A program made the translations under genes and the position numbers. From positions 1-33,610 of the forward strand of contig PLSV01000336.1 in assembly GCA_003165235.1 (NCBI GenBank): a stretch of 33,610 nucleotides of DNA. Reading direction: 5' to 3'. Source of the DNA: Syntrophobacteraceae bacterium. GTDB taxonomy: Bacteria > Desulfobacterota > Syntrophobacteria > Syntrophobacterales > Syntrophobacteraceae. The notes below the pieces were generated by a model. The model worked only from the letters and a program-made list of their open reading frames with translations, was not told the origin of the DNA and ran no database searches. Shown piece by piece: positions 17,748 to 33,459 of the stretch (positions are counted from its first letter, which is position 1; the number at the start of each line of letters is the position of its first letter).

Positions 17748-18769
17748 TTGATGACGCCTTTCATCCAGAAGAGAACCCTGTCGCGGACCTTGAACAGCAG
17801 GGTCATGATGCTTGAGAAAAAAATGGTGATGATGATAATGGCAGCGAAGACTTTGGAGTACTCCGTCCAGTTCTGCGCCCAGTTCACATACCAGCCGAGC
17901 CCCGCCTTGACACCCATCATCACCGCCACCACCAGGGTTAGGAAAGCCGCGCAAAGGCCTATGAAAAGCCCGATGAAGATGTCCGGCAGGGCCGAGGGCA
18001 GGGCTACGTGAAAAACGAGATAACGGCGGTCGGCCCCCATGGTTCTGGCCACCTCCAGATGCGCGATCCGGACGTTGGAGATTCCCGTGCTGGTCATGAC
18101 CGTGACCGGGAACCAAACGGCGAGGGCGATAAGGAAAACCCCCGATAGCCACGTTGTGGGAAAAAGCACCAGAGAGAGAGGGATCCAGACTGTCGCCGGA
18201 ACCGGACCCAGGGTTTTGAGCACGGGCATCATCCAGTAACGGCATGCGGCGTACCAGCCGATGAGTATCCCGGTTACGAGGCCGGCGAAAATACCCACAA
18301 AATAGCCGCTCAGAAGCAGGATCATGGAATGGCAGACGCATTCAAGTAGAAGGGTCCTGTCGGCCCACAGGCTTCTGATGATGAGGTCGGGGCCGGGAAA
18401 ATACGGTAAAGGCAACAGAGCAAACTTGAGGGTTATCAGGTCGAGAACTGCCGGGATCAGTATTGCGACCGTGAGCAGGGGCGCCATAGAACGATATCGT
18501 TGCCGCCACGCTGGCGAAAAGAGCTGCAAAGTTGCCGCTGCAAGGGCCAAAATGAGAGACCCCTTGAGCAGAAGAGCATAGTATCCAGACACGGGCGATG
18601 TCTGTCTCGACGGCAGGCTGGTGTGGAGGATTAACGCCAGCAGCAGAGCCGCCACCGGCAGCAGCGTCAATACCGCATGGACCAGGCCTTCATAAGATCG
18701 GGTGTGAGGGAGGCTTGCCGGAGCGGAGACCTCCCTCGATGAAGCAGAGTTGAGCGACGCGGTCGTCAT
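17741..18769 (-). CDS. NitT/TauT-type ABC importer permease
   Basis: A 342-residue inner-membrane permease. ATG 18769 (MTTASLNSASS) overlaps the binding-protein stop by ATGA and is preferred over the longer frame from 18805. An N-terminal extension with two extra hydrophobic segments precedes the BPD_transp_1 core, which has about five more. The coupling motif for the ATPase is seen in EVARTMGADRRYLVFHVALPSA (E-A-A-x3-G family pattern). It stops at TAG inside the ATPase start. The whole importer resembles SsuC/TauC systems; the added N-terminal membrane part makes it longer than the usual ~260 residues. Confidence 0.88.
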   Translation of the reverse strand: MTTASLNSASSREVSAPASLPHTRSYEGLVHAVLTLLPVAALLLALILHTSLPSRQTSPVSGYYALLLKGSLILALAAATLQLFSPAWRQRYRSMAPLLTVAILIPAVLDLITLKFALLPLPYFPGPDLIIRSLWADRTLLLECVCHSMILLLSGYFVGIFAGLVTGILIGWYAACRYWMMPVLKTLGPVPATVWIPLSLVLFPTTWLSGVFLIALAVWFPVTVMTSTGISNVRIAHLEVARTMGADRRYLVFHVALPSALPDIFIGLFIGLCAAFLTLVVAVMMGVKAGLGWYVNWAQNWTEYSKVFAAIIIITIFFSSIMTLLFKVRDRVLFWMKGVIKW

Positions 18770-19809
18770 GAAGAAACCTTCTCCACTTTGATGGAATCGA
18801 TCCACTCATCAGATAGGCCGTTGAGAGGTCCGAAAATGCGGTTGGCAAGCTGTTCAATGTCGGTAGTGGCCTCCAGCATTTTGGAAGCCTTCATCTCATT
18901 GCCCGCAAGGATCAGGGCCTTGCGCCCGCCGGAAACCGACGGGATGAAATTCAGACTAGCCAGGCTCTTGGCATTAAGCTCCACTGTTCCCCCGACGTAT
19001 TTCTTCTCTATCGCCAGGGAAGCAGCGGCCTCAGGATTGGCTGACACCCATTTTGCAGCCTTGAGAAGACCGCGGGAAACGGCTGCGGCAACCTCAGGGG
19101 ACTCGCGGTAGAATTTCCCGGTGAGGAAGACAAGGCAGCAATATTCGTCCTTATAGGGCAGACTGCTGGCGGTGCTAAGGAGGCTCCGTCCCTTGCCGTT
19201 GGCTAGAATCATTGTGCCATGGGGGTCCGAAACGACGACGGCGTCAACCTCACCCTTGTCGAGCACAAGTTCAAGCTCCGAAGCAGGAAACGCGCGCCAG
19301 TCAACGTCCTTCTTCAGGTCCCAACCTTTGGCGCCAAGCACCCGGTTTAGGAACATGAAAGGAGTGCTGCCAATGGCTGGCACGCCAATACGCTTTCCCT
19401 TTAAATCGTCAAGACTGTTAATGGTTGTATTGTTGCCGGCGATGACATGGATACAACCGGTGTGCACTCCCGCCACTACCTTCAGGTCGATGCCTTGTTC
19501 GGCTGCTTTGAGCCAGGTGAGGGCCATTCCCTGGGCGCCATCGATTTTATTGAAGGCAAAGGACTCCTTGATGAAGCTCCAGTCCCCCTTGAGCAGCTCC
19601 ACGTCAAGCCCTTCGGCCTCCCAGAATCCTTTTTCCTTTGCCGCAAAAACCGCCGCTTCACAGGTGGCTCCGATGTAAGCCCATCGGACCTTGGCAAGGG
19701 GCTTGACGGGATCGGCCGCCCAGGCAGACCAAGGGATTAAGAAGGTGAGTGCAAGAATGACCGTTAACGTTACCAGGCCGGACTTCTTTTCGCGCAACTT
19801 CCTTTGCAT
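18766..19809 (-). CDS. NitT/TauT-type ABC substrate-binding protein of the importer
   Basis: A 347-residue periplasmic protein starting at ATG 19809 with AGGTAAC upstream. The signal peptide runs RKLREKKSG, a hydrophobic core (LTVILALTFLIPW) and a cut after AWA. Motifs: VRWAYIGATCEAAVFAAKEKGF, GLDVELLKG, DGAQGMALTWLKAAEQGIDL, LDDLKGKRIGVP. It carries a vicinal pair Cys224-Cys225 (DEYCCLVF), placed like Cys217-Cys218 in the orphan binding protein at 4945-5988. The gene heads the minus-strand importer operon binding protein, permease, ATPase with ATGA overlaps. Ligand unknown; a small anionic, perhaps sulfur-containing, compound is likely by family. Confidence 0.88.
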   Translation of the reverse strand: MQRKLREKKSGLVTLTVILALTFLIPWSAWAADPVKPLAKVRWAYIGATCEAAVFAAKEKGFWEAEGLDVELLKGDWSFIKESFAFNKIDGAQGMALTWLKAAEQGIDLKVVAGVHTGCIHVIAGNNTTINSLDDLKGKRIGVPAIGSTPFMFLNRVLGAKGWDLKKDVDWRAFPASELELVLDKGEVDAVVVSDPHGTMILANGKGRSLLSTASSLPYKDEYCCLVFLTGKFYRESPEVAAAVSRGLLKAAKWVSANPEAAASLAIEKKYVGGTVELNAKSLASLNFIPSVSGGRKALILAGNEMKASKMLEATTDIEQLANRIFGPLNGLSDEWIDSIKVEKVSS

Positions 19810-19906
19810 GAGTTACCTCCGAATTTTGAAGTGAGGGCGCCGGCGCCCCAGAGCTGCCCACTCAGCCAATTCCACATTCTTCTCAAACAGGTTCGGACAA
19901 ATGTAG

Positions 19907-19958
19907 AGTATCTTGATGGAAATAATGAACAAATATTGGTCTATCGTCTGCTTGTCAA
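19907..19958 (-). promoter_or_regulatory. Promoter with shared operator-like element (copy 3, minus strand)
   Basis: On the minus strand TTGACA (19958-19953), preceded by TTCTC, is followed by TTGTTCATTATTTCCATC and AAGATACT (19932-19907). The last half, ATCAAGATACT, is identical to the copy at 22367. It drives the importer operon. Confidence 0.55.
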
Positions 19959-20121
19959 GAGAAAAATGAATTTCCTTCTGAAAACAGCTAGATAGCATAC
20001 GGTGGTTTGATCTAGCCCGGCTGTCTTTCGACCGATAACTGCTTGGCGGAGAGCGTTTTCCAGGAAGACCGGGATGATGGCCGCATTCCCGTATGGGTTT
20101 TAGCAACCGGCAAAAAACTGC

Positions 20122-20150
20122 TTGACAAAACGAGAGGCTTTGTTGATTAT
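20122..20150 (+). promoter_or_regulatory. Promoter of the third binding-protein gene
   Basis: TTGACA (20122-20127) is followed after 17 bases by GATTAT (20145-20150). Downstream, GTCGATTGAATAAATGAAC then TTTATG (20159-20183) partly resembles the shared element GTCGATCAAGATACTGAC-TTTATG at 22379-22401. Confidence 0.45.
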
Positions 20151-20331
20151 ACAACTTTGTCGATTGAATAAATGAACTTTATGAGCATGACATAATGAGA
20201 CATGGAGCAGGAATCATCACAGGGGCCTGCAACGCCATCTCCAGTCTATTTCGGATGCTGGGGCCGCATTGGCCGTTTTGCCGATGAAACTGAGATGTGG
20301 TGTCTAATTGAGTCATCAGGAGGAGCAAGAC

Positions 20332-21345
20332 ATGCGAAGAAAGCCTTTGCAGAGTCTTTTGAGCCGCGTTTTTCTTTTGGCTTTAGGATTATCGCTGTTC
20401 GCGGGCGCGTGGCTCTTTGGCATAAAAGTGGAGTCGGCAGAGCCCGCTGAGCTGGCGCCTTTTGTGATCAAATATCCCAACATTCAATGGTTTGACCCCG
20501 TATATGTGGCTGACGAGAAGGGATGGTTCGCCGAAGAAGGGATTCAAATCCAATGGGCCGGTGAAATACCGGCTGCGCAACTGGCGACTGCCGTGGCGTC
20601 GAGAAGCATAGATTTTGCCAATCGGCACACCCCCGTCGTGCTCATGGCGATTGCAGGAGGGGCGAGGTTGAAACTGGTGGCTGCCGGGGCAAAGACTACT
20701 CCGGAACGGCCGCATATGAAATGCGTGGTGTTGCCGACGAGCAGCATTCAATCCGTGAAGGATTTCAAAGGGAAGAAAATAGCTGTCAACAGTTTTGGAG
20801 CCGGCTCTGAATACGTCTTGAAAGAATACCTGAAGCGAAATGGTCTGGACAAGGATGTCGAATTCGTTGTCATTCCCGACGCCAAGCAGGAGCAGGTCCT
20901 ACTGCAAGGGTTGATTGACGTGGGGGTGCTCCATTCGCCCTACTGTGAGAAAGTGGTGAAGACAGGCGCGGGCCGCGAGGTCTTCAATGACTACGTCGTG
21001 GACGACGGCATAAGCGGTATGCTGCCCTATTTCACCCATACGGATTTTATTCAGGAGCATCCCGACATCGTGCGGAAGTTTCTCAGGGTCCTCGTTCGAG
21101 CTTCTGAATGGACCAACGAGCACCACGAGGAAGCCGGGGTCATCTTCGCCAAAAGGAGAGGTCTTGACCCTGCTTACGCCGAAAGCCGGGATTATTACAA
21201 GAATGGAATCATTCCTGACGATGTCCCGGTGCAGTGGTGGATCGATCTGCTTGTGAGAGAAGGTAAACTGAAAGAAGGACGGATTATCGCCTGGAACGTA
21301 TATACCAATGACTACAACCCCTATTACCAACCAGGGCAAAAATGA
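20332..21345 (+). CDS. NitT/TauT-type ABC substrate-binding protein, solitary
   Basis: A 337-residue binding protein from ATG 20332, with AGGAGGAG at 20319-20326 deciding the start. The signal region is MRRKPLQSLLSR then a hydrophobic stretch (LALGLSLFAGAWLFGI), with a likely cut after VESA. Mature motifs: PNIQWFDPVYVADEKGWFAEEGIQIQW, DFANRHTPVVLMAIAGGARL, VKDFKGKKIAVNS and EHPDIVRKFLRVLVRASEW. It lacks the Cys-Cys pair of the other two binding proteins, so it probably binds a different ligand. It is divergently transcribed from the importer operon and could share its permease and ATPase, as no others lie next to it. Confidence 0.85.
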   Translation: MRRKPLQSLLSRVFLLALGLSLFAGAWLFGIKVESAEPAELAPFVIKYPNIQWFDPVYVADEKGWFAEEGIQIQWAGEIPAAQLATAVASRSIDFANRHTPVVLMAIAGGARLKLVAAGAKTTPERPHMKCVVLPTSSIQSVKDFKGKKIAVNSFGAGSEYVLKEYLKRNGLDKDVEFVVIPDAKQEQVLLQGLIDVGVLHSPYCEKVVKTGAGREVFNDYVVDDGISGMLPYFTHTDFIQEHPDIVRKFLRVLVRASEWTNEHHEEAGVIFAKRRGLDPAYAESRDYYKNGIIPDDVPVQWWIDLLVREGKLKEGRIIAWNVYTNDYNPYYQPGQK

Positions 21346-21690: not shown

Positions 21691-22050
21691 AAAGGAGATT
21701 GGAAATGGCAATTTCTCAAAAGTGCCAGTATGCCCTGCGGGCAATCTATGAACTGGCTAAGAATAATGGGGCCGGGCCTTTGAAAATGGCGGAAATTGCC
21801 CGCAGGCAGGTCATTCCCTTGAGGTTTCTCGAAATCATCCTGAATGAACTGAAACGCGGCGGTTTTATAAGAGCGGTCCGAGGCAAAGACGGCGGCTGTT
21901 ATCTCAACCGCTCACCGGATGAGCTGACGGTTGGCGAAGTGATGCGATTTATAGAGGGGTCCTTTGCGCCGGTCGGCTGCGTCAATGAAGAGAACACCGA
22001 TTCTTGTCCGCTCCAGGGAAGGTGCGTGTTTCTTCCTCTGTGGGATAAGG
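21691..22050 (+). repeat. Long direct repeat, copy 2 (Rrf2 5' part)
   Basis: Matches 4121-4480 with about ten differences, in the same orientation, offset 17,570 bases. Recombination between the two would delete everything from the orphan binding protein to the third binding protein. Confidence 0.85.
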
Positions 22051-22160
22051 CCCAAAAAGCTCTGGCGCAAGTCTATGACGGCGCCACCTTCCTGGATTTA
22101 ATCGAGATGGAGTCTCAACTCGCCGAAAAGTATGAATCCTGTCTCGATTATGTGATCTGA
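21705..22160 (+). CDS. Rrf2 family transcriptional regulator (IscR-like), copy 2
   Basis: A 152-residue paralogue of the regulator at 4135-4590. Residues 1-115 differ at only about six sites (for example Lys to Glu at 17, Ala to Val near the first Cys of the cluster motif). The tail after LWDKAQKALAQ is clearly different (YDGATFLDLIEMESQLAEKY). The winged helix and the three cysteines GCV-x7-CPLQGRC are kept, so both may bind an Fe-S cluster. Like copy 1 it is followed by a TTCTTGACAGCCTT promoter with the shared element. The pair may have arisen by duplication of a regulator-promoter block. Confidence 0.9.
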   Translation: MAISQKCQYALRAIYELAKNNGAGPLKMAEIARRQVIPLRFLEIILNELKRGGFIRAVRGKDGGCYLNRSPDELTVGEVMRFIEGSFAPVGCVNEENTDSCPLQGRCVFLPLWDKAQKALAQVYDGATFLDLIEMESQLAEKYESCLDYVI

Positions 22161-22763: not shown

Positions 22764-23951
22764 CTAAATAAAGCGTTTCTGCGTGTCTTTGAGATATTTT
22801 TCTTCGAGCAGGGTAATGATTTTCTTGATTATGTTGCGGCGAATGTCGAGTTCCACAGGGAGGTTGGGATCCTGGTGGGCTTCGTTCACGCGGGTTCCCA
22901 CCAGGAAAAAGATAACGTCGCTGTCCAGCAGGATCGATACAAGTTCGGAGGCGGCGTTGGACCTCGCCGTCTCGGGCTTTTGCCCGCTCTCGAGCATTTC
23001 CGCCACCTTGCTGAGGGTAATCGTGCCTTCGGTTATCAGCTCGATCCCCGCCATCCTTGAAGGCGGAGGAATTTCGGGGTCGACAATGTCAAGGTCCATT
23101 TCGATCTCTTCGTCAAGTTCGCGGCCCAGAATCTGGGCGGTTGTGCCTCCGCAAATCACTTTGCGCCCGTTGAAAGATTTGACCACTGCGGCCAGTTCCT
23201 GGTCTTTAGCCTCCGAAAATGGCGGCCCGGTTACAAGCAGCAGAAAACGGGGATGCCGCAAATATATCACCCCGCAGGTGATATCGTCCTTTGGTTCGAA
23301 GGAGTCGATCTGGCGTGCGTGAATCGCGATTTTCCTTGAGAGTTGCCGCGAGGATAACCCCTTTTCCCAGGCAATCCACTTCGCGATATTCTTGCTCACC
23401 TCCTTGAGGCCCCATCCGAGCGGGTAGCCGGGAAGTCCCATGCCTGCCTGGCTGACGCCATCGGAAAAATAGACAATCCTATCGCCTATCTGCATATCGA
23501 ACTCGGAGATGTTGACTTCCCGCGCGCTCCATTTCTTGAGCTGTATCCGGGTCCCGGGCACCTGGACGAGTTCGACGCCCCTGAGCAGCACGTAAGCGGG
23601 ATTTCCGTGCTCTATTACGCGGGCGTGTCCCGAGCTGTTGATGTCGATTATGGTAAAAGTCGAGTAGCTGATCTTTCTAACCTTACAGACAGGCAGGGTC
23701 TCCATAATGACTTCGGCGGTCTCGCTCACATCGGCGTAATTGGAAATGTACTTCAAGGCCATGGTGGCCGTGAGGTTCGCCAGAACGCTCGCCTTTATCC
23801 CGCTGCCCAGTCCATCGGAGAGGCAGGTGATCACGCGGTCTTCTTCCTTGATCTTATGGGTCAGCACTACGTCACCGGAGACATATTGCCCGTACTTGTT
23901 ATACTGGTAGGAGTCGATATCGAGAAAAAAATCCCGGGTGGTCTTTATCAT
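22764..23951 (-). CDS. SpoIIE-family serine/threonine phosphatase
   Basis: A 395-residue protein whose ATG overlaps the hydrogenase stop (ATGA). The N-terminal ~235 residues form a PP2C/SpoIIE phosphatase: VITCLSDGLGSGIKASVLAN holds the first metal Asp with its DG, IGDRIVYFSDGVSQAGMG the second, and EPKDDITCGVIYLR the last DD. The C-terminal ~150 residues (HPRFLLLVTGPPFSEAKDQEL onward) are a further domain seen in such hydrogenase-linked phosphatases, without a recognised function. It likely dephosphorylates a signalling target in response to the neighbouring sensory hydrogenase. It is last in the minus-strand operon and ends with TAG. Confidence 0.85.
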   Translation of the reverse strand: MIKTTRDFFLDIDSYQYNKYGQYVSGDVVLTHKIKEEDRVITCLSDGLGSGIKASVLANLTATMALKYISNYADVSETAEVIMETLPVCKVRKISYSTFTIIDINSSGHARVIEHGNPAYVLLRGVELVQVPGTRIQLKKWSAREVNISEFDMQIGDRIVYFSDGVSQAGMGLPGYPLGWGLKEVSKNIAKWIAWEKGLSSRQLSRKIAIHARQIDSFEPKDDITCGVIYLRHPRFLLLVTGPPFSEAKDQELAAVVKSFNGRKVICGGTTAQILGRELDEEIEMDLDIVDPEIPPPSRMAGIELITEGTITLSKVAEMLESGQKPETARSNAASELVSILLDSDVIFFLVGTRVNEAHQDPNLPVELDIRRNIIKKIITLLEEKYLKDTQKRFI

Positions 23952-25660
23952 TCGACCTCCTGTGTGGTCACGGCCTGGATTATGGAGTTCAGGATCACTT
24001 CGGATTCCGCCGCATTTTCGCCCAACAGGTAAGCTATCTGCTGAACCGTTTCCAGATTTTTCTTGATAACCTCTTGCGCCTTCTGAATCATGGCCTCTTT
24101 ATGAACGGTCGGCTTGGTGATGTCCTGGAAAATGCCGCACACGACCCTATTTTTTTCGATTGCAAAGATGTCCACGTGGAGCACCGATTTTTTGTGCCTC
24201 AGATCTCGACTGAGCATATCTTCGTCTTTCTCGAGCACGGTTTTGAAAAGCGAATGGAACGGCGCGATCTCGCGCAGAAGCACACCCTCCAGGCCGGGCT
24301 TTCTGCGGAAGGCCGTTTCAACGTCAGGGCCTAAAATCCTGGCGAAATTCATATTGCACTCGATCAACCTGAGTTCCTCATCGACCAGCACGATTGCGCT
24401 GGGGACCTTTTCCATCAGTGCGTTGGCCTTCTTCTGCGCCAGTTTTCGCATGTAGGAAACGCACATCACCTTCTCGGCCTTGCCGTCGATCAGCGCTTTT
24501 GCAAACTCGCGGCAATTGTCATAACCGCAGCCGCCGCAGTTCAGTTCGTCCTCGGGACCGTACTTGCCAACCGACTGAAGGGCCTGCTTCATTATCTTGT
24601 CACTGTACTCCTTGACAAGAACGGGCTCGGGGGTGGGTCCGGCTGACTGCTGAGCTTCAAGGGCTCGAGGTATCTCATTTCGGGGATATTTTGCATAGTC
24701 CATGATCTGGCAGCGCTTCCAGGCGGTAGCTTGACGTTGGCTGGCCTTGGGGCCGTTAACGCAACCACCCTCGCAGGCCAGCAGCTCAAGAAAGACAGGG
24801 TGGGAAAGGCGCATTTCATTCAGGCCTGAAATTGCCTTTTTGATATTCCGAATCCCTGAGAACGCCATACAATCTGCTTCCATGATGCTGCAGTTTGCTT
24901 TGACCCCGGCCATCATTCCCCCGTCGATCGGGTAGAGGCCCCCTTCACGGGCGCTATAAGGAACAAAGCTCTCCGAGTCGCTCGAATCGGTTTCGAAGAG
25001 GAGTCTCTCTTCAACCATCCAGCGCCTCATGTCTTCGAATGTCAGCGCTACGTCGAGCATGGCCGGATTTGAATCCGCCTCACGCTTTTTGCCGATGCAG
25101 GGGCTGAAAAAGACGATGCCAATGCCCGGCCCGAATGTTTCGCGCAGCATTTTGCAGTGCGCCAGGACCGGCGAAACTTGGGGCATAAGGCAGTTGACAT
25201 ATTGCGGAACGTATTTCCCGATGTAATTAACGACTACCGGGCATGCGGTGGATATGATAACCCGTGGGGTCCTGTCCTCGAGCAGTGTGGCCACGCTCCC
25301 TGAGACCCGTTCCGCGCCGAGCGCCGTCTCCGAAACGCCCTTGAAACCGAGCTTCTTCAGGGCGCGGATAACCGCCGTTGGTGGAATATCGGGGAATTCG
25401 CTGACAAAAGACGGCGCAAGCGACGCATAGACCTCTTCTTTCTCGGCAAGAAGGTTGCGCGCCCGCTTCAGATCGTCTCTAACATGCTTGGCCCCGTTTG
25501 GACATATCTCGACGCAGTGACCGCACATGATGCAGAGGTCTGGAATTACGGCGGCGCAAGCGTTTTCCACTTTAATCGCTTTTATGGGACACTCCCGAAT
25601 GCACTTGAAGCAGTCCTGGCATTCAGTCCGTTCGGTATAGATGGGGTTTTGAGAGTTCAT
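23948..25660 (-). CDS. Sensory [FeFe]-hydrogenase-like protein with PAS domain (phosphatase-linked)
   Basis: A 570-residue modular protein. Two [4Fe-4S] ferredoxin motifs open it (Cys14-17-20-24 and Cys43-46-49-53). The H-cluster domain shows the three signature loops in altered form: STACPVVV (Cys140), SPCIGKKRE (Cys188) and LLACEGGCVNG (Cys296, Cys300), giving the four H-cluster ligands. The usual proton-transfer cysteine before Cys140 is Ala139, a change known in sensory HydS-type enzymes with low turnover. Then a CGGCGYDNC Fe-S motif (NCGGCGYDNCREFAKAL) and a C-terminal PAS-like domain (IVLVDEELRLIECN). Together with the adjacent SpoIIE phosphatase this fits the phosphatase-linked group C [FeFe] hydrogenases. 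It probably senses H2 or redox state in the cytoplasm rather than producing H2. Confidence 0.88.
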   Translation of the reverse strand: MNSQNPIYTERTECQDCFKCIRECPIKAIKVENACAAVIPDLCIMCGHCVEICPNGAKHVRDDLKRARNLLAEKEEVYASLAPSFVSEFPDIPPTAVIRALKKLGFKGVSETALGAERVSGSVATLLEDRTPRVIISTACPVVVNYIGKYVPQYVNCLMPQVSPVLAHCKMLRETFGPGIGIVFFSPCIGKKREADSNPAMLDVALTFEDMRRWMVEERLLFETDSSDSESFVPYSAREGGLYPIDGGMMAGVKANCSIMEADCMAFSGIRNIKKAISGLNEMRLSHPVFLELLACEGGCVNGPKASQRQATAWKRCQIMDYAKYPRNEIPRALEAQQSAGPTPEPVLVKEYSDKIMKQALQSVGKYGPEDELNCGGCGYDNCREFAKALIDGKAEKVMCVSYMRKLAQKKANALMEKVPSAIVLVDEELRLIECNMNFARILGPDVETAFRRKPGLEGVLLREIAPFHSLFKTVLEKDEDMLSRDLRHKKSVLHVDIFAIEKNRVVCGIFQDITKPTVHKEAMIQKAQEVIKKNLETVQQIAYLLGENAAESEVILNSIIQAVTTQEVE

Positions 25661-25668
25661 GTCGCTCC

Positions 25669-25932
25669 CTATTGCTTGCCTTTAAGATGCTCATCGAGAA
25701 TAAATTCCAGGTTATCGGAGTTCAACAGGCTAAAGATGTCGCCATCAGCCGTCAGGTTGGGGCCGTCTTTGCAGAGGCCTTCGCAGAGGTGTCCTTTCAA
25801 GAGCACCTTTCCGCAAAGCCCGTGCCGCTCGATGTAATCCCGGATCAGGGCGATGTTTCTCTTGTTGCCTCTCGAAAAACAGGAACTTCCCATGCAGATG
25901 GCCAGCTCAATCGGTTCTTTTCTGTCGCTCAC
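25669..25932 (-). CDS. [2Fe-2S] thioredoxin-like ferredoxin (NuoE C-terminal type)
   Basis: An 87-residue protein with the pattern CMGSSCFSRGN (Cys13, Cys18) and CEGLCKDGPN, the four ligands of thioredoxin-fold [2Fe-2S] ferredoxins related to the NuoE/HndA C-terminus. It is cytoplasmic and probably shuttles electrons to or from the sensory hydrogenase that follows after 8 bases. ATG 25932 overlaps the HydF stop. It ends with TAG. Confidence 0.85.
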   Translation of the reverse strand: MSDRKEPIELAICMGSSCFSRGNKRNIALIRDYIERHGLCGKVLLKGHLCEGLCKDGPNLTADGDIFSLLNSDNLEFILDEHLKGKQ

Positions 25933-27197
25933 GGCTGTCCCTCTCGCCGCCAGTCAGTTTGCACCCCTGAGAGGCGTGATTTGCGGTAAATCTCCAGCGC
26001 AGCGGGGAACGGCGCCAGCGCGCGTTCCATGATGCCCAGGCTGTACGCGATTACGAGCCCGTAGTTGGTGATCGCAACCCCCGCCTGGCGGCAATGAAGT
26101 ATTCGGCTCAGCATTTCCCTCCGGTTCCACATGCAGGCGCCGCAGTGGATTATAAGCCTGTAAGGCGCAAGGTCATCGGGGAAATCGTGCCCCTGGACGT
26201 GATCGATTTGCAGCTTTGCTCCCACATATTGAGTCAGCCAGCGCGGGATTTTCACCCGGCCGATGTCCTCGGCGATCGGATGATGAGTGCAGGCCTCGGC
26301 GATCAGCACCCGGTCTCCAGCCCTCAGGTTTTCGACCTCGAGGGCCCCTTCGACTTGCGTGAGCAGATCGCCCTTGAAGCGCGCAAACAGGATCGAGAAG
26401 CTGGTCATCGGTACGCCCGCAGGTGTATCGGCCGCAACTTTCAAAAAGGCCTGCGAGTCCGTGACCACCAGCTTGGGTGGACTCTTTAACTTTTCAAAAG
26501 CCATTCGCAACTCACGCTCTTTTACAATCATGCAAAGAGCGTCGCTGTCGAGCAAGTCCCGAATGGTCTGAACCTGGGGCAGAATCAGCCGGCCTTTGGG
26601 CGCTTCCTTATCGATCGGAATTACCAGTATGGCCACCTCTGCGGGCCCGACAAGGTCACCGGCAATTGCAGGATCGTCGATGAACTGGGCCGGAGCGGTC
26701 TCCAGCATCGCCTGCCGCAGTGAACCAACCCCTTCACCAGAAAGCGCGCTGACGCAAACAGCACGTATTTTTCGGCTGGAGAGTTCCTTTAGGTGGACCG
26801 GGTCAGGGGCTCCGAGATCGCACTTGTTGAAAACGACGAACATCGGGATTCCACGCGCCCCAAGTTCTTCGACAATACCTTCCTCGAAGGCGCTCCAGGT
26901 TGAATAATCGGTTGCAAGCACACCGATGTCGGTTCTGTCGAATACCTGGCGCGTCTTTTCCATCCGAAGTCTTCCAAGAGCCCCTTCGTCGTCTATGCCC
27001 GCTGTGTCGATGAAGAGCACAGGACCGAGCGGCAGCAGTTCCATCGGTTTTTCGACCGGATCGGTAGTCGTTCCGGCGAATTCGGACACAATGGCTACGC
27101 TTTGGCGCGTTATCGCGTTCAAAAGGCTCGATTTGCCCACGTTGCGGCGGCCGAAAATGCCGATATGAATGCGCATGCTCCGGGGCGCTTTCAGCAT
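25929..27197 (-). CDS. hydF: [FeFe] hydrogenase H-cluster maturation GTPase HydF
   Basis: A 422-residue HydF. ATG 27197 (MLKAPRSMRIHIG) is favoured by GGGAGG upstream; the frame runs further but only as a shadow of the lyase gene. GTPase motifs: G1 GRRNVGKSSLL, G2 Thr region FAGTTTD, G3 DTAGIDD, G4 NKCD. The C-terminal Fe-S binding signature is complete: ACTHHPIAED and, about 50 residues on, IIHCGACMWNRRE (Cys-x-His ... His-Cys-x2-Cys). HydF is the scaffold on which the 2Fe subcluster of the H-cluster is built before transfer to the hydrogenase. It serves the hydrogenase in this operon or others elsewhere in the genome. Confidence 0.95.
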   Translation of the reverse strand: MLKAPRSMRIHIGIFGRRNVGKSSLLNAITRQSVAIVSEFAGTTTDPVEKPMELLPLGPVLFIDTAGIDDEGALGRLRMEKTRQVFDRTDIGVLATDYSTWSAFEEGIVEELGARGIPMFVVFNKCDLGAPDPVHLKELSSRKIRAVCVSALSGEGVGSLRQAMLETAPAQFIDDPAIAGDLVGPAEVAILVIPIDKEAPKGRLILPQVQTIRDLLDSDALCMIVKERELRMAFEKLKSPPKLVVTDSQAFLKVAADTPAGVPMTSFSILFARFKGDLLTQVEGALEVENLRAGDRVLIAEACTHHPIAEDIGRVKIPRWLTQYVGAKLQIDHVQGHDFPDDLAPYRLIIHCGACMWNRREMLSRILHCRQAGVAITNYGLVIAYSLGIMERALAPFPAALEIYRKSRLSGVQTDWRREGQP

Positions 27198-28615
27198 CCT
27201 GCGCCTCCCGGCATTTTTGCAGCACCTCCAAGACTGCACACAGCCTCCGCGCTTGTAAACCGGTCAAACTGCTCAGCGCTCAGCAGCTTTTCGTCAAGCA
27301 CCATCTGCCGGACGCTCTTTTTTTCTTCGCGTGCGCGCCGTGCGATCCGGCACATGAGATCGTAGCCGAGGACTGGCAAAAGGGCCGTTGCCGCTGCGGT
27401 GGATATCTCAACGTATCTCTTGCACTTTTCCTCGTCGGCTTCGATCCCGGCCACGCAGAGCCGGCACAAAATATCGGAGGCATTGGCAAGCAGGTCGATG
27501 CTGTCGAGCAGGCAGGCGGCTACCAGCGGCAGAAAGGGATTGAGTTCAAGGCTCCCCGAAGCGCAGGCGAAAGTGAGCGAGGCGTCCAGACCGAAGACGA
27601 GCATGGCCGCCTGGCTTGCTGCCTCCGGGATTACCGGATTGACTTTGCCCGGCATTATGGAAGACCCGGCCTGACGCTGGGGCAGGATAATCTCGGCAAA
27701 CCCACTCTCCGGTCCGCTGGCCATCAGCCGCAGGTCCGAGCAGATTTTCAGCAGACTCGCTGCACAGGCCTTCAAAATTCCGGATACTTCTACAAAAACG
27801 TCTGCGTTTTGGGTGTTGTCGATCAGGTTCTCGGCGCGGGCGAAGCCAATAGAGGTATTTGCCCGTAAAACCTCAGTCACCCCAAATATGAAATCCCGCG
27901 GCGCAGACAACCCGGTGCCGATGGCGGTGCCGCCAAGATTGATTACACGCAGCCGCTCCTCGCATTTGTAGATCCGCCATCTGTCACGGTTCATGGCTTC
28001 TGCATAGGCGCTCATTTCCCGCCCGAGAGTCGTCAGGACCGCGTCCTGAAGCTGGGTACGGCCAACCTTGACCACGTGCGCGAAGCGCCTCTCGAGGTTC
28101 TGGAATTCTTCCTGCAGAGATACGATTTTTGATTCCAGCACCCGAAGCCCCCGGATTGCAGCGAGCTTCAGGGCCGTAGGATAGGCATCGTTTGTGGACT
28201 GGTGAAGATTGATGTCGTCGAGCGGCGATACCCTGCCATAGCTGCCGTGCGCCTCACCAAGAATTTCCAGGGCGCGGTTGGCAAGCACCTCATTTACATT
28301 CATATTGCTGCTGGTGCCGGCGCCTCCCTGAAGCTGGTCAACCACTACATGCTCGGTAAGCAGCCCTTCCCCCATTTCGAGGCAAGCACGTTCGATAGCC
28401 TCAGCTTTTTGGGGATCGCCTTTCCATGCCCCGAGTCTTCGGTTGGTCTGGGCGCACGCCAGCTTAACCTGACCGAAAGCGCGAACCAGCTCCCTATGAA
28501 GCGGACGACCGCTGACGGGAAAATTCTCGAGCGCTCTGGCCGTATGAATGCCGTATAGCCTGCCCTCCGGAATGGCAAGCTCGCCGAGGAAATCGCGCTC
28601 TATTCTAGACATCAT
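27191..28615 (-). CDS. Aspartate ammonia-lyase/fumarase-superfamily enzyme of the Hyd operon
   Basis: A 474-residue class-II lyase with ATG 28615 overlapping the HydG stop. Signature GSSIMPGKVNPVIPE and conserved GAGTSSNMNVNEVLANRA, HQSTNDAYPTALKLA and GRTQLQDAVLTTLGRE place it with AspA. It would convert aspartate to fumarate and ammonia, or act on a related amino acid. Such a lyase is a recurring partner of hydEFG genes. A supply of ammonia for the dithiomethylamine bridge of the H-cluster is one suggestion; here it is inference. The ending GGAAKMPGGAGC is unusual, with a terminal Cys. Confidence 0.88.
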   Translation of the reverse strand: MMSRIERDFLGELAIPEGRLYGIHTARALENFPVSGRPLHRELVRAFGQVKLACAQTNRRLGAWKGDPQKAEAIERACLEMGEGLLTEHVVVDQLQGGAGTSSNMNVNEVLANRALEILGEAHGSYGRVSPLDDINLHQSTNDAYPTALKLAAIRGLRVLESKIVSLQEEFQNLERRFAHVVKVGRTQLQDAVLTTLGREMSAYAEAMNRDRWRIYKCEERLRVINLGGTAIGTGLSAPRDFIFGVTEVLRANTSIGFARAENLIDNTQNADVFVEVSGILKACAASLLKICSDLRLMASGPESGFAEIILPQRQAGSSIMPGKVNPVIPEAASQAAMLVFGLDASLTFACASGSLELNPFLPLVAACLLDSIDLLANASDILCRLCVAGIEADEEKCKRYVEISTAAATALLPVLGYDLMCRIARRAREEKKSVRQMVLDEKLLSAEQFDRFTSAEAVCSLGGAAKMPGGAGC

Positions 28616-30015
28616 ACATAAACGTCCCGTTCCCCTGCGCGAACCCGGTCGAGCATCCTTGAAGCTCTCGCCCTGGGGTGTTCCTCCATTCGATCAAGTT
28701 GCGCCTCTATCAGCTTTTCGCCTGCAAGCCCGGTTTCAGGCAACGCGTAATCGATCAGGTATTCAAGGAAGGTCGAAAGCGCGTTCGGGTCGCAACGGAA
28801 CTTGATGGCGCCCGGTTTTGCAACCGCCATGAAGTCCTGGCCCGTTCGCCCTAACCTGTAGCATGCCGTACAAAATGACGGGATGTACCCTAGCCTGGCG
28901 AGATCGCCGACCACTTCGTCAAGGGGGCGGTGGTCGCCAAGTTCAAACTGAGCGCCCCTGTTCTGAACTCCATCCGCATATCCGCCCGGATTGGTCCGGC
29001 TGCCTGCGGAAATTTGCGAAACTCCCAAGGCTAAAGTTGACCGCCGCGTATCAGCATCTTCGCGGGTTGACATTATTATGCCCGTATATGGCACGGCCAT
29101 TCGCAAAATGGCTATTATTTTAAGAAAATCGCTGTCGCTCACCGGGTGTGGCGGATTTGAGGCGACCCGTGAGCCGACTGTGGGTTCCAGCCTGGGCACG
29201 CTTATCGTGTGCGGTCCAACTCCGAACACGGCGTCGAGATGTTCGACATGCCGGAGCAGGGCCAGAATCTCGAACCTCCAGTCGTACAATCCTAAGAGCA
29301 CCCCCATCCCCACATCGTCGATTCCAGCCTCCATCGCACGCTCAACTGCCCCAAAGCGCCAGGCGTAATCGTGTTTGCGGCCGGTGGGGTGCATGATGGA
29401 ATAGGTCTCCGGGTGATAAGTCTCCTGGAAAACCTGGTAGGTGCCGATACCGGCGGCTTTAAGATCCCTGAATTCATCTATGGACAGTGGGGCCAGGTTG
29501 ACGTTTACGCGCCGGATCTCCCCCCGGCCGCTACGAGTTTTGTAAACCGTTTCGATTGATTTAAGAATATAGGAAAAACCTTCGCCGGCATAGCCTTCGC
29601 CGGCGACCATCAGAATGCGCTTGTGGCCCTGCTCTACCAGTATCTTGACTTCAGATGCGATTTCTTCCTGCGACAGAGCCCGCCGCCGTATCTCCCTGTT
29701 TTCGGCGCGAAATCCGCAGTAGAGGCAGTTGTTTTTGCAGAGGTTGGAAATGTAAAGAGGCGCGAAGAGAACGATGCGGGGGCCGTAGATCGATTCTTTC
29801 ACACTTTTGGCGGTAAGAAAAAGCTCTTCGAGCAAGTCGGGGGCGCTGACGGCGATAAGCGCTTCGACGTCCTCCGAATCGAGTCCTTTGAGTTCCAGCG
29901 CCTTGGCCAGGATTTCCCGAACCCGCACCGGATCCACACGTAACTCGAAGGCTTCCATCCGGTGGTGAATGGAGCGGCTGTCAATAATTGCGTCGGTTTG
30001 CTCTGGCTGATTCAT
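28612..30015 (-). CDS. hydG: [FeFe] hydrogenase maturation radical SAM tyrosine lyase HydG
   Basis: A 467-residue protein from ATG 30015 (MNQPEQTDAIID); a longer GTG start at 30081 is possible but has no ribosome-binding site and would extend past the usual length. The SAM cluster motif is CKNNCLYCGF, followed by RILMVAGEGY and VNVNLAPLS. The C-terminal motif FCTACYRLGRTG carries the cysteines of HydG's auxiliary five-iron cluster. HydG splits tyrosine to give the CO and cyanide ligands and an Fe-cysteine synthon for the H-cluster. It is preceded by its own promoter-like sequence and starts the HydG-lyase-HydF unit. Confidence 0.95.
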   Translation of the reverse strand: MNQPEQTDAIIDSRSIHHRMEAFELRVDPVRVREILAKALELKGLDSEDVEALIAVSAPDLLEELFLTAKSVKESIYGPRIVLFAPLYISNLCKNNCLYCGFRAENREIRRRALSQEEIASEVKILVEQGHKRILMVAGEGYAGEGFSYILKSIETVYKTRSGRGEIRRVNVNLAPLSIDEFRDLKAAGIGTYQVFQETYHPETYSIMHPTGRKHDYAWRFGAVERAMEAGIDDVGMGVLLGLYDWRFEILALLRHVEHLDAVFGVGPHTISVPRLEPTVGSRVASNPPHPVSDSDFLKIIAILRMAVPYTGIIMSTREDADTRRSTLALGVSQISAGSRTNPGGYADGVQNRGAQFELGDHRPLDEVVGDLARLGYIPSFCTACYRLGRTGQDFMAVAKPGAIKFRCDPNALSTFLEYLIDYALPETGLAGEKLIEAQLDRMEEHPRARASRMLDRVRAGERDVYV

Positions 30016-30094
30016 ATAGTGAGCTTTCAAACGGAGAACTTGAGAAGGAGCGTGATCTGATGACTCCAGAGAACCCCTCACTTCAATAAGGATT

Positions 30095-30124: not shown

Positions 30125-31216
30125 TCATATTTTCGTCTTCGGGGCAACGCCGCGACGGGGCTCGTCAACCCCTGGGGCGCGTTCTTGACCCCTGGCTGAT
30201 TTATATGCAGCCCCATTACTTATCTGAAAAGTATCGATGACCTCTTGAAGGAGCTTACTTGTCACAATCAGCGTTGATACATTTCCACCAATCACTTCTT
30301 TGTTGAGTTCATATCCCTCACAGATATCTTTGGAATAGCGGGCCACCATCTCTCCAATCGCACGATCCTCCGGCTCTTTGACAATTCCTGTCGCCAAAGC
30401 TGCCGGTCCTCTGAAATTTGCAGGGGTAAAGAGGGTGAATCCGGGTTTTGTCAAGCTGCTGATCCTCTCATTCTCCGCTTCATTCCTGCCCACGATAACC
30501 TTGAGATCCGGCAGGACCCTGAAGTGTCTTCCCACTTTCAGAAGGTGGATGTCAGTCATGTCAAAGCCGGGCGTGCAGGCGAAGAGGTCCCGCAGCCTGG
30601 ACGCTATGATGGGGTCGGTTAGCAGGCATCCGCCGGCGGGGCAGGGATAGTCCCTTATCCCGAGATTATCCGCCATATGGATCTGTATTTTTCTCGATCG
30701 GCCCGTGATGGAGAGAAGTTTTTCCCGGTCCACTATCCCCTCCCGCTCGGGCAAGCTCGGCGGAAAAAGGTGGGCTGAAAGGGGCCTCAGGATGAGTCCC
30801 TTAAGGCCGCTTTCCCTTTCGATGACTTCAATGGCGTTTCTGTGCTGAGACATGGGTCTCTGGCCGAGCACCTCTCCAGTGACCACAAAGGAAGCGCCGA
30901 GCGAAGCCATCTTCTCCCTGACTTTCCTGAGCATATAGATCCGGCAGTCGATGCACGGGTTCATGCCCCTGCCGTGACCGTGGGGCGGGTCCCTTACTAT
31001 TTCCAGGTAATCCATGCCCTTGACCATTACCTGGATATCGACTCCCAGTTCTTCGGCAATGATACGCGCCTGGTTCCTACACCCGGCCTTTTTGGGCGTG
31101 CAGTTGCAAAAAGGACTGGTAAAATGGATAGCTGTTACATCGATCCCCTGGTCAATCATGAGCTTGACGGCCAGAGAGCTGTCCAGACCTCCGGAAAGAA
31201 GCGCAATCGCCTTCAT
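30125..31216 (-). CDS. PP-loop ATPase (tRNA-thiolation/MnmA-TtuA-like) within the hyd operon
   Basis: About 363 residues. Of two in-frame ATGs, 31216 has GAGG at the right distance, while 31222 sits directly on it. The N-terminal PP-loop is ALLSGGLDSSLAVKLM, followed by Cys-rich segments: FCNCTPKKAGC, NPCIDCRIYM and YPCPAGGCLL. Such proteins adenylate a substrate and, with Cys or an Fe-S cluster, carry out thiolation as in MnmA, ThiI or TtuA; this one belongs to a less studied branch often labelled as a thiamine or tRNA sulfur-transfer protein. Its place between HydE and HydG and near a ThiF-like gene hints at sulfur chemistry with the maturation set, or merely chance. Confidence 0.8.
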   Translation of the reverse strand: MKAIALLSGGLDSSLAVKLMIDQGIDVTAIHFTSPFCNCTPKKAGCRNQARIIAEELGVDIQVMVKGMDYLEIVRDPPHGHGRGMNPCIDCRIYMLRKVREKMASLGASFVVTGEVLGQRPMSQHRNAIEVIERESGLKGLILRPLSAHLFPPSLPEREGIVDREKLLSITGRSRKIQIHMADNLGIRDYPCPAGGCLLTDPIIASRLRDLFACTPGFDMTDIHLLKVGRHFRVLPDLKVIVGRNEAENERISSLTKPGFTLFTPANFRGPAALATGIVKEPEDRAIGEMVARYSKDICEGYELNKEVIGGNVSTLIVTSKLLQEVIDTFQISNGAAYKSARGQERAPGVDEPRRGVAPKTKI

Positions 31217-31349
31217 ATTCATCCTCGTATGACAGATTTATATACAACCCTTCACGATGTGCTTAACACTTTGCGATGTACTCCGCATAGCGCGGAAGGC
31301 CTACAGATGAATGCGCCTATCATGAGCGTTGGGCGCTCGCGGGAGGCCT

Positions 31350-32411
31350 TCAGGACGCCGCCTGCCTGATCACATGCCCGCAGTCGGCGCCAATTGTCCT
31401 GTTAAGCGAGATAATCCTGGATGTAGCACAGTCAAAGCACCTGTCGGCATTTTCATCCAGACATATCTTGTTGGGATAGAGTTCATACAGTGGCCTGACC
31501 CTGGTGGGGGTGATGTTGGGCATCATAACGTTCGCTCCCGCCTGAAGGGCTTTTTCTCTGCCGAGGGGATCCAGGACGCCCATCGCAGTTGTCGCCGGGA
31601 TATGGGCATACGGGAATACGAGCCTCAAAACGGCCACAAGCCGCAAAGCCTGCTCGAGAGTTCCGCCCTTCTCGTTTCTTAAAGGGGTCTGGGGATGAGG
31701 TATGAAAGGACCGATGCCGACCATCTCCGCTCCGAGTTCGTGCATCCAGATTACGTCTTTGGCCAGGCTTAGGGCGTCCTGTCCCGGCAGCCCGACCATG
31801 ACGCCGCTTCCTAACTGGTAGCCGAGTCCCTTGAGCACGAAAAGGCCCCGCTTTCTTTCATAAAGGTCATCATCCGGGTGGATCTCTCTAAAGATTTTCT
31901 CCTCAGTTGTTTCAATCCTCAGCAGATACCGGTCAGCACCGGCTTTCCTCCATGCCGAATAGGCGCTCTTGTCACGTTCTCCCAGGCTCAGGGTTATAGC
32001 GAGTCCTGTCCTGGATTTTATTTCGCAAATGATATCGGCCATCAGGTCCGTGCTAAAATAGAAGTCCTCGCCCGACTGAAGCACAACGGTCTTATAGCCG
32101 ATCCGCCAGGCCCTTATCGCGGTCTCCACGATCTCTTCGCGCGTCAGCCGATATCTTTCAAGGCTATCATTATGCCTTCTCAATCCACAGTACAGGCAGT
32201 TTCTTCTGCAGTAGTTCGAAAACTCTATGAGGCCTCTAAGATGAACGGCCTCCCCCACCATTTGGGCTCTCACCCTGTCGGCTGCGTGGAGCAAAAGGCA
32301 TTCTTGCTCTCCTTCAGCTTCAAGCAGCGGAACAAGCCATTCAACGGTTGGCCTTCTGTGTTCCACTCCCGCCCTCAGGGCCTCGATGAAATCCATTTCG
32401 TAAGCTTCCAT
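31350..32411 (-). CDS. hydE: [FeFe] hydrogenase maturation radical SAM protein HydE
   Basis: A 353-residue HydE from ATG 32411 (MEAYEMDFIEAL); ATG 32396 is an alternative, and no strong ribosome-binding site decides. The SAM motif CRRNCLYCGLRR is followed by VVLQSGEDFYF, GLAITLSLGER, YLLRIETTEEKIFREIHPD and GVMVGLPGQ, all HydE-typical, and GIGPFIPHPQTPLRN. HydE acts on the HydG-made Fe-Cys synthon in building the diiron subcluster. The extra N-terminal frame up to 32510 overlaps the ThiF-like gene and is ignored. It lies 22 bases after that gene. Confidence 0.93.
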   Translation of the reverse strand: MEAYEMDFIEALRAGVEHRRPTVEWLVPLLEAEGEQECLLLHAADRVRAQMVGEAVHLRGLIEFSNYCRRNCLYCGLRRHNDSLERYRLTREEIVETAIRAWRIGYKTVVLQSGEDFYFSTDLMADIICEIKSRTGLAITLSLGERDKSAYSAWRKAGADRYLLRIETTEEKIFREIHPDDDLYERKRGLFVLKGLGYQLGSGVMVGLPGQDALSLAKDVIWMHELGAEMVGIGPFIPHPQTPLRNEKGGTLEQALRLVAVLRLVFPYAHIPATTAMGVLDPLGREKALQAGANVMMPNITPTRVRPLYELYPNKICLDENADRCFDCATSRIISLNRTIGADCGHVIRQAAS

Positions 32412-32433
32412 TAATGCCGATCGCCCAAGACGC

Positions 32434-33459
32434 CTATATCCCAAGATATCGCGCGTAAAAAGTCCTTGCCCTGGCCACATCTGTCGTATTGGTGACAATG
32501 GCCCTGCCATCCGGAAAGATAATCATTTCGCCGTCATCGGCTTTAAAGCGCATGAGCAGGCCGCTCGAACTGACGCTGCCGACCGGCTCGAGCCGTTGGC
32601 GAAGCGCCTCAAAATCAAGCTCAACGGATCGCGGAGGGTTTACCTGGACAGAATTGCGGCCGCAAAGAGAGGTTGTCCAGGAGACTTGGCGCGCATCGAG
32701 GAATTCGAAATTACCCTTGGCGCAACATGGACATTGGTCATCTTTTTGGAACTTCATAAACTCAAAGGAACCGTTCCATACATCGACGTAGAAGAGGCCA
32801 GTGTCGGCCGGGGGCGATCCCAGCAGAACCCGCAGGGCGATCGTCACCTGCAGGGACGCCATTACGGCGACGGCTGAGTTGAGTACGCCGGCGGTATCAC
32901 AGGTGGGCGTGGCCCCGGGATCGGGAGGGCTGGGGACAATGCATCTCAGGCAGGGACCACGGCCTGGGAGGATCGGCATAACCATGCCCATCGTGCCTAT
33001 CACTCCAGCGTAAACCCATGGTTTGCCCTGTTTGATGCAAACGTCGTTCAGTAGATAACGGGTCTCGAAGTTGTCGGTTCCGTCGAGGACAAGATCGGCG
33101 TCCGCCAGCAGCGATTCTGCGTTTCGCGTTGTCACATCGACAGCCAGCGATTCTACGCCGATGGTGGAATTGATCGCCCGCAGCCGCCGCGCAGCGGCCT
33201 CGGCTTTGGAGACGCTTGCCGCTGCGTCGCTCTCTTCGAAAAGAACCTGCCTCTGAAGATTGCTCCACTCCACAAGGTCACGGTCTGCTATTCTAAGTCT
33301 GCCCAGACCGGCCCTTGCCAGCAGTTCGGCCTGAAAGCATCCCAAGGCGCCGCACCCGACGATGAAAACGGTGCTTTGAGCCAGTTTAGCCTGGCCGTTT
33401 GCGCCTATTTCGGGCAGGATTCGTTGCCGGGCATAACGATTGTTATCGGTTGAATTCAT
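32434..33459 (-). CDS. ThiF/MoeB/HesA-family adenylyltransferase
   Basis: A 341-residue E1-like enzyme. YARQRILPEIGANGQ starts it, then the nucleotide fold IVGCGALGCFQAELLARAG, the Asp-Arg motif IADRDLVEWSNLQRQVLF, VLDGTDNFETRYLLND and a CLRC / CPCC zinc site (GPCLRCIVPSP; QCPCCAKGN). A C-terminal domain of about 90 residues follows. These enzymes adenylate the Gly-Gly tail of small sulfur carriers (ThiS, MoaD). No carrier gene is seen in the window. AAGGG before ATG 33459 supports the start. It stands first in the minus-strand hyd cluster, so promoter elements should be in the 150 bases to the window end. It stops at TAG. Confidence 0.88.
   Translation of the reverse strand: MNSTDNNRYARQRILPEIGANGQAKLAQSTVFIVGCGALGCFQAELLARAGLGRLRIADRDLVEWSNLQRQVLFEESDAAASVSKAEAAARRLRAINSTIGVESLAVDVTTRNAESLLADADLVLDGTDNFETRYLLNDVCIKQGKPWVYAGVIGTMGMVMPILPGRGPCLRCIVPSPPDPGATPTCDTAGVLNSAVAVMASLQVTIALRVLLGSPPADTGLFYVDVWNGSFEFMKFQKDDQCPCCAKGNFEFLDARQVSWTTSLCGRNSVQVNPPRSVELDFEALRQRLEPVGSVSSSGLLMRFKADDGEMIIFPDGRAIVTNTTDVARARTFYARYLGI

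Follow-up and report, generated by a model that had tools for sequence, protein, structure and literature searches.

A group C [FeFe]-hydrogenase-like putative sensor and its phosphatase at the end of an H-cluster maturation operon in Syntrophobacteraceae

For what purpose does a bacterium keep an H-cluster maturation pathway when the only [FeFe]-hydrogenase-like protein found in its genome resembles a sensor? This question is raised by a contig of 33,610 nt from a Syntrophobacteraceae bacterium (PLSV01000336.1 of assembly GCA_003165235.1; the whole contig is referred to as the window), in which genes for a thioredoxin-like [2Fe-2S] ferredoxin, an [FeFe]-hydrogenase-like protein (HydS), and a SpoIIE-type serine phosphatase follow one another. 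The original prediction, made from the letters of these three genes, was a hydrogen or redox sensor that signals through dephosphorylation; the observation behind it holds, with corrections regarding gene boundaries, the strength of the PAS match, and the H-cluster loops, and the interpretation is borne out in part. The three genes form the 3' end of an operon that also holds genes for HydE, HydG, an aspartate ammonia-lyase-like (AspA-like) protein, and HydF; the span described earlier is thus the end of an H-cluster maturation operon, a setting absent from that prediction. The best explanation as a whole, at a probability of roughly two in three, is that HydS is an H2-responsive (or H2/redox-responsive) sensor that switches the SpoIIE phosphatase.

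H-cluster maturation genes and the sole [FeFe] hydrogenase found in the genome

HydE, HydF, and HydG all scored above the curated cut-offs, possessed intact motifs, and were encoded in the operon of HydS (Table 1). From HydG to the phosphatase gene, the spacings were -4, -49, -4, 8, and -4 bp, and plausible ribosome binding sites precede the HydS and phosphatase genes. The [2Fe-2S] gene, described earlier as overlapping HydS, is separated from it by 8 bp, its 4-bp overlap being with HydF; the phosphatase proposed together with HydS is present, but as a gene of its own that overlaps HydS by 4 bp and not as a domain of it. The cysteines of the [2Fe-2S] protein are present, although its Pfam score (22.9 bits) is just under the cut-off of 24.8 bits.

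PF02906 proteins were searched for in the window genome and 39 relatives (40 genomes), and HydF was searched for at E <= 1e-40. The window genome had one PF02906 protein, HydS. Such proteins occurred in 8 of the 40 genomes, all of which had HydS, and in six of these (G000, G003, G005, G012, G016, and G023; completeness 91-99%) HydS was the sole one. The other two, G002 and G015, had catalytic-type PF02906 proteins besides HydS, which indicates that the search can find proteins of that type. HydF was found in all eight HydS genomes, each time at most about 1.5 kb from HydS, and in none of the remaining 32. SpoIIE lay directly downstream of HydS in the eight family loci, in none of which a HydA-like gene was called; HydG and HydE were each found in six and, with the frame caller used here, the [2Fe-2S] gene preceded HydS in seven. 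As for the maturase gaps, one contig starts within HydF, another has only a match to a HydG fragment, and in G003 HydE follows SpoIIE. In the window genome, H-cluster maturation seems to be kept for sensing alone. The new point, drawn from these genome counts, is a complete H-cluster pathway whose one known client is a sensor; a literature search, covering mainly freely accessible papers, turned up no account of a genome whose single [FeFe] hydrogenase is a sensory one.

Elsewhere in the phylum sample, 13 genomes had a full-length HydS, each together with at least three PF02906 proteins. Of the 12 loci that were read in these genomes, all had SpoIIE after HydS and 11 also had a HydA-like gene within the stretch; HydF was detected in 11 of the 13 genomes, in 10 of them above the cut-off. 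In three loci of Verrucomicrobia and Acidobacteria (L122, L123, and L127), genes for HydA, HydG, (AspA), HydF, HydE, ([2Fe-2S]), HydS, and SpoIIE stand in a row. Because these loci keep HydA in a similar order, loss of HydA from an ancestral operon would be the simplest account of the family loci. The same three loci agree with the idea that an operon once built around HydA lost its catalytic subunit and is now decaying, its survival being a matter of chance. This is most improbable, however, in view of the open frames, the intact motifs, and the low ratios of nonsynonymous to synonymous substitution rates (dN/dS), which were 0.04-0.14 in the computable pairs of full-length HydS, SpoIIE, HydF, AspA, and HydG, sensor-only lineages included; dN/dS and the intact motifs together speak against decay. 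HydS gave 0.045-0.089 (four of six pairs, dS being saturated in two) and SpoIIE 0.044-0.108 (all six pairs), and between sensor-only genomes both were under purifying selection, with 0.044-0.090 where dS was computable. For the short [2Fe-2S] gene the range was 0.06-0.21. One HydG pair, with G002 (identity 0.32, dN/dS 0.67), was discarded because the match, 97 residues long and in L085, is wrong or incomplete. There is a slightly better than even chance that part of the Syntrophobacteraceae lost the catalytic [FeFe] hydrogenase and kept a complete H-cluster operon solely for a lone H2 sensor. Its signal would pass by dephosphorylation, most likely to [NiFe]-based or other metabolism of H2 and formate, and the cofactor would then serve for information and not for catalysis.

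Group C placement and features of HydS

In a tree of 44 H-domains, hand-picked from the 106 of an earlier tree and with group labels taken from motifs and architecture and not from the HydDB tool, all 28 group C-type rows fell on one side with support 100/99. The window HydS grouped with the other Syntrophobacteraceae HydS proteins at 100/100, and these were nested in a set (96/89) with sequences from Acidobacteria, Verrucomicrobia, and Victivallales and with G310. This placement and the linked SpoIIE gene bear out a phosphatase-linked, sensory-type [FeFe] hydrogenase. Grouping with the catalytic group A enzymes, named earlier as a result that would speak against it, was rejected by the approximately unbiased (AU) test (p-AU 7e-5), and the group A motifs TSCCP, MPCTAKK, and EVMAC were not found in HydS. 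As regards the other such result named earlier, a missing H-cluster, HydS has the ligand residues and the operon encodes HydE, HydF, and HydG. Group D (M2e) was likewise set aside since HydS has a PAS domain, the tree holding no verified group D sequence. Judged from its sequence, HydS is an ordinary member of HydDB group C3, a known and still putative sensor class described as phosphatase-linked (putative) (PMC5037454): placed in group C, it has a linked Ser/Thr phosphatase gene, a four-Cys C-terminal cluster motif, a PAS domain, and no relay Cys, the last being a common but not an obligatory trait of the class. No difference from C3 was seen, the unusual point being the lack of a catalytic [FeFe] partner. 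The phosphatase-linked C3 proteins did not form one clade in the tree (2 changes), kinase- and sigma54-fused forms falling among them. Three sequences (L128_10250, L187_3272, and L132_8137) were left out of the trees as misaligned or short, and L104_2340, a very long branch in the 106-row tree, is absent from the 44-row one. L171, labelled C_NtrC by the motif rule, is in fact a 564-aa HydS with SpoIIE downstream, and a 499-aa protein at a contig end of G002 (L118), labelled B/HfsD, fell in the C clade of the 106-row tree.

HydS retains all four H-cluster cysteines and has intact motifs for the two N-terminal ferredoxin-type clusters and for the C-terminal cluster. The AlphaFold model (mean pLDDT, predicted local distance difference test, 86) matched CpI and CbA5H with Z of about 36-38 over some 340 residues. 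As noted earlier, Ala139 directly precedes the H-cluster ligand Cys140. Named relatives of HydS are here the best 80 of 568 confirmed ones, retrieved with 19 aligned HydS proteins, each of which has a SpoIIE neighbour. Among these 80 and the window protein, the relay position was Ala in 69 of 81, Cys in 10, His in 1, and Ser in 1; in the tree alignment, all 28 group A rows and all 13 B/HfsD-labelled rows had Cys there, and 37 of the 47 C3 rows had Ala. TmHydS of Thermotoga maritima is described with the same Ala (A131), a PAS domain, and a C-terminal cluster motif (PMC10055695, PMC8163306). Since Ala occurs in most relatives and in TmHydS, Ala139 is, to judge from these alignments, a mark of the class and no oddity.

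The loops do depart from those of group A (TSCCP / MPCTAKK / EVMACPGGC), as had been observed, but they match the pattern most common among the relatives of HydS (xACP / GPCIAKK / xACxGGCxNGP), and for this reason their departures alone are no argument for lost function. The very low activity proposed on that basis therefore finds little backing, Ala being the usual residue and TmHydS being reported as catalytically active, with its A131C variant less active (PMC10055695). At the positions of CpI M353 and M497, TmHydS is reported with Gly and Ser, whereas the window HydS has Ser186 and Leu294. TamHydS of Thermoanaerobacter mathranii, a group D protein, resembles HydS in having Ser and Leu there, no relay Cys, and a C-terminal cluster; it is described without a PAS domain, unlike HydS (PMC8163306). 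Residue 186 (nt 25,103-25,105) is Ser in all eight Syntrophobacteraceae HydS proteins, Gly in 79 of 81 (the named relatives and the window), and Met in the 28 group A rows.

The Cx2Cx4Cx16C motif near the C-terminus corresponds to that reported for groups C and D (PMC8163306). The PAS domain stands in part: PAS_8 (PF13188) matches were obtained for 38 of 46 aligned members, window included, and the helices and strands of the model follow a PAS-like order over residues 401-513, but the score of the window protein itself is below threshold. As the rows of the HydS alignment (VIA-align) span mainly residues 1-348, the assignment rests on Pfam and secondary structure. The C-terminal helix that follows is a possible contact to the phosphatase.

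That TmHydS with the same Ala is active (PMC10055695), and that no PF02906 protein besides HydS was found in the window genome, would also suit a protein that works chiefly as a slow catalytic hydrogenase, producing or consuming H2 and having its redox partner in the [2Fe-2S] protein; the adjacent phosphatase would then be secondary. Such a role is very improbable. In 77 of the 80 named relatives SpoIIE directly follows HydS, a count that describes this clade and not all of group C, covering many phyla (two of the misses are contig ends, L147 being the true one); in addition, PAS matches are frequent, the protein falls in group C, and [NiFe] large-subunit matches were obtained in all eight HydS genomes of the family.

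The phosphatase and a proposed signalling route

The phosphatase model (pLDDT 90.7) matched the PP2C domains of 3pu9 (Z 24.9) and of Bacillus subtilis SpoIIE (5ucg, Z 23.6), mainly over residues 5-234. The metal-binding Asp residues D27, D46, D164, and D223 were invariant in 42 aligned phosphatases; that of Ruminococcus albus lies outside this alignment, and simple patterns matched only part of its metal-binding Asp motifs. Residues 235-395, strongly kept across phyla, form a C-terminal domain with conserved GPP, CGGTT, TEG, and VGTxxN-type positions, for which no match was obtained in Pfam or NCBIfam; a sequence search of PDB gave no convincing hit (best E 0.15), and the results of the structure searches consisted of matches to the PP2C domain. 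It is present in the R. albus SpoIIE (30% identity over 149 residues); three other SpoIIE loci of the window genome, represented by their longest frames, gave no significant match to it. This domain may be the docking site of HydS.

The following sequence of events is proposed. HydE, HydG, and HydF of the same operon would build the H-cluster of HydS. H2 would be bound or oxidized at this H-cluster, with the N-terminal clusters, and perhaps also the thioredoxin-like [2Fe-2S] protein, exchanging electrons, and the C-terminal Fe-S/PAS/helix region of HydS would change its conformation in response. This region would dock on the translationally coupled SpoIIE phosphatase, probably on its C-terminal domain, and switch it, and the phosphatase would then dephosphorylate a Ser/Thr-phosphorylated regulator encoded elsewhere. 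The regulon would most likely comprise [NiFe] hydrogenases or other H2/formate-linked metabolism, since no catalytic [FeFe] hydrogenase was found here or in most of the HydS-bearing relatives of the family.

A different input is conceivable, in which HydS senses the redox state of the ferredoxin pool and not H2, the H-cluster acting as an electron/proton store that receives electrons via the [2Fe-2S] protein and the N-terminal clusters, and the phosphatase reporting reductant pressure. Consistent with this are the [2Fe-2S] gene ahead of HydS in seven of the eight family loci and, by the rule applied here, in 60 of the 80 named relatives, the two intact ferredoxin-type motifs of HydS, and a report that HfsB of Thermoanaerobacterium possibly responds to redox potential (PMC11837493). 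A simple Fe-S sensor, however, would need no HydE, HydF, or HydG, yet among the 40 genomes HydF was found in every one with HydS and in none without it, so that a pure redox sensor is unlikely.

Several observations weigh against an H2 sensor that switches the phosphatase. Of an Rsb-type partner switch (SpoIIE/RsbU with an RsbW kinase and a STAS protein), the operon supplies the phosphatase but no RsbW-like kinase or STAS target. A look for a kinase or anti-sigma-type partner elsewhere had been advised, and no unpaired RsbW-type kinase is evident in the genome: its two clear small HATPase_c_2 proteins (on C132 and C363) adjoin other SpoIIE and STAS genes, while three further small STAS frames (on C176, C140, and C162) are unpaired candidates. 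The C-terminal cluster of the group D protein TamHydS is reported not to be reduced by H2, while its secondary structure changes (PMC13104023). This behaviour makes signalling through the redox state of the C-terminal cluster doubtful, by analogy, and is the reason why a conformational relay is favoured for HydS. The PF13188 match of the window HydS (E 0.0012) scored 19.1 bits against a cut-off of 21.8. HydF was not found in 2 of the 13 HydS genomes from elsewhere in the phylum (G241 and G234), although several PF02906 proteins occur there; bins can miss genes. The bin of the window genome has a contamination of 8.9%. Matches to [NiFe] large subunits were also obtained in 28 of the 32 genomes without HydS, so they do not mark the carriers of HydS. 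Finally, dS was near saturation and the dN/dS values are rough.

Related systems, other H-domain fusions, and neighbouring genes

The HydS operon of R. albus 7 (RUMAL_RS17365-17385) has the same [2Fe-2S]-HydS-SpoIIE order as the window, and its HydS and SpoIIE are 31% and 30% identical to those of the window over near full length, the C-terminal domain of the phosphatase included. Genes for Rex, adhE, and a phosphotransferase are followed there by [2Fe-2S]-[2Fe-2S]-HydS-SpoIIE and a 4Fe-4S hydrogenase-like protein (HydA2 of the literature). The 13.7-kb stretch shown for R. albus 7 contains no maturases, whereas the window contains maturases and no second hydrogenase. In Monoglobus the order is [2Fe-2S]-HydS-SpoIIE-4Fe-4S protein. 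For R. albus, H2 sensing via PAS and a Ser/Thr phosphatase was proposed by Greening et al. in 2019, and expression of the eight-gene cluster is reported to drop 111-fold in co-culture, which the authors linked to the H2 level (PMC6776011). In hfsABCD of Thermoanaerobacterium, HfsB is described as a PAS-bearing [FeFe] hydrogenase and HfsC as a serine phosphatase (PMC11837493, PMC5707799). By description, HfsB-HfsC is the same module as HydS-SpoIIE; for the catalytic HfsD, no counterpart was found in the window genome.

H2 sensing by group C [FeFe] hydrogenases is still termed putative in a source on these proteins (PMC8924675), and according to another, group C sensors of the species studied are often encoded in one operon together with catalytic [FeFe] hydrogenases (PMC8163306). 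Where HydE, HydF, and HydG have no known client other than the sensor, sensing is separated from [FeFe] catalysis: in such a lineage, removal of HydS or HydF should abolish sensing and leave [FeFe] catalysis unaffected. If the proposal is true, H2 sensing by dephosphorylation would extend to the Syntrophobacteraceae, where the H2 level sets the energetics. To this family belong well-known sulfate reducers and syntrophs that degrade propionate.

Among 36 other genomes examined for PF02906, 15 had a single such protein, encoded by an open reading frame of 687-884 aa; HydF, the only maturase searched for, was found in none of the 15. Seven of these proteins were scanned; five had a sigma54-activator AAA+ domain with a Fis-type helix-turn-helix and two had a histidine kinase. 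The sigma54-type fusions are those of L106-L116, for example L107:4457-6754, L109:3582-5954 (minus strand), and L110:4223-6625, five of the 11 having been checked with Pfam. With L171 removed, the alignment has 11 sigma54-type rows, all with His at the relay position. These proteins may be transcription factors that use the H-domain without an H-cluster. In L117:4471-6528 and L119:3342-5399 (minus strand), a group C-type H-domain is fused to a histidine kinase; each is the sole PF02906 protein of its genome, and no HydF match was obtained in these genomes.

Table 1. Genes of the operon and features of HydS and the phosphatase in the window
Feature	Position (nt)	Strand	Basis
ThiF/MoeB-like E1 enzyme	32434-33459	-	
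HydE radical S-adenosylmethionine (SAM) maturase	31350..32510	-	TIGR03956 367 bits; CX3CX2C
ThiI/NFACT-R-like protein	30125-31222	-	
HydG radical SAM maturase	28612..30081	-	TIGR03955 518 bits; CX3CX2C + CX2CX22C
AspA-like protein	27191..28615	-	NF008909 600 bits; GSSxMPGK
HydF H-cluster maturation GTPase	25929..27239	-	TIGR03918 557 bits; P-loop + CxH...HCxxC
Thioredoxin-like [2Fe-2S] ferredoxin, 87 aa	25669..25932	-	PF01257 E 8.4e-5; CX4C, CX3C
HydS, group C [FeFe]-hydrogenase-like sensor (putative), 570 aa	23948..25660	-	PF02906 E 1.2e-38, PF04060, Fer4; tree; AlphaFold model
Two N-terminal [4Fe-4S] ferredoxin motifs, HydS residues 14-53	25502..25621	-	CX2CX2CX3C twice (start 14, 43)
Loop L1 TACP, HydS residues 138-141; Ala139 at proton-relay Cys position, ligand Cys140	25238..25249	-	
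Loop L2 PCIGKK, HydS residues 187-192; ligand Cys188, preceded by Ser186	25085..25102	-	
Loop L3 ACEGGCVNGP, HydS residues 295-304; ligands Cys296, Cys300	24749..24778	-	
C-terminal Cx2Cx4Cx16C Fe-S motif, HydS residues 375-400	24461..24538	-	
PAS domain, HydS residues ~414-515	24116..24421	-	PF13188 in 38/46 aligned members; model secondary structure
C-terminal helix, HydS residues 521-547, low confidence	24020..24100	-	Model
HfsC-type SpoIIE/PP2C serine phosphatase, 395 aa	22764..23951	-	PF07228 E 7.2e-13; model
Phosphatase C-terminal domain, residues 235-395 (~160 aa)	22767..23249	-	16 columns invariant in 17 aligned sequences

In the window, as in several related loci, the AspA-like gene is flanked by HydG and HydF, and its product could be a source of ammonium for the bridge of the cofactor, an idea put forward in this analysis. 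At the other seven loci of the family, no ThiI/NFACT-R-like or ThiF/MoeB-like gene was called; in the window, genes for MnmA-like and class V aminotransferase proteins lie further upstream of the operon. Downstream of it, nt 16,923-21,345 have the look of an ATP-binding cassette (ABC) transporter of the nitrate/sulfonate/taurine type with two substrate-binding proteins, as judged by eye from the translations, and a regulator of the Rrf2 family (Pfam) is encoded at nt 21,699-22,160.

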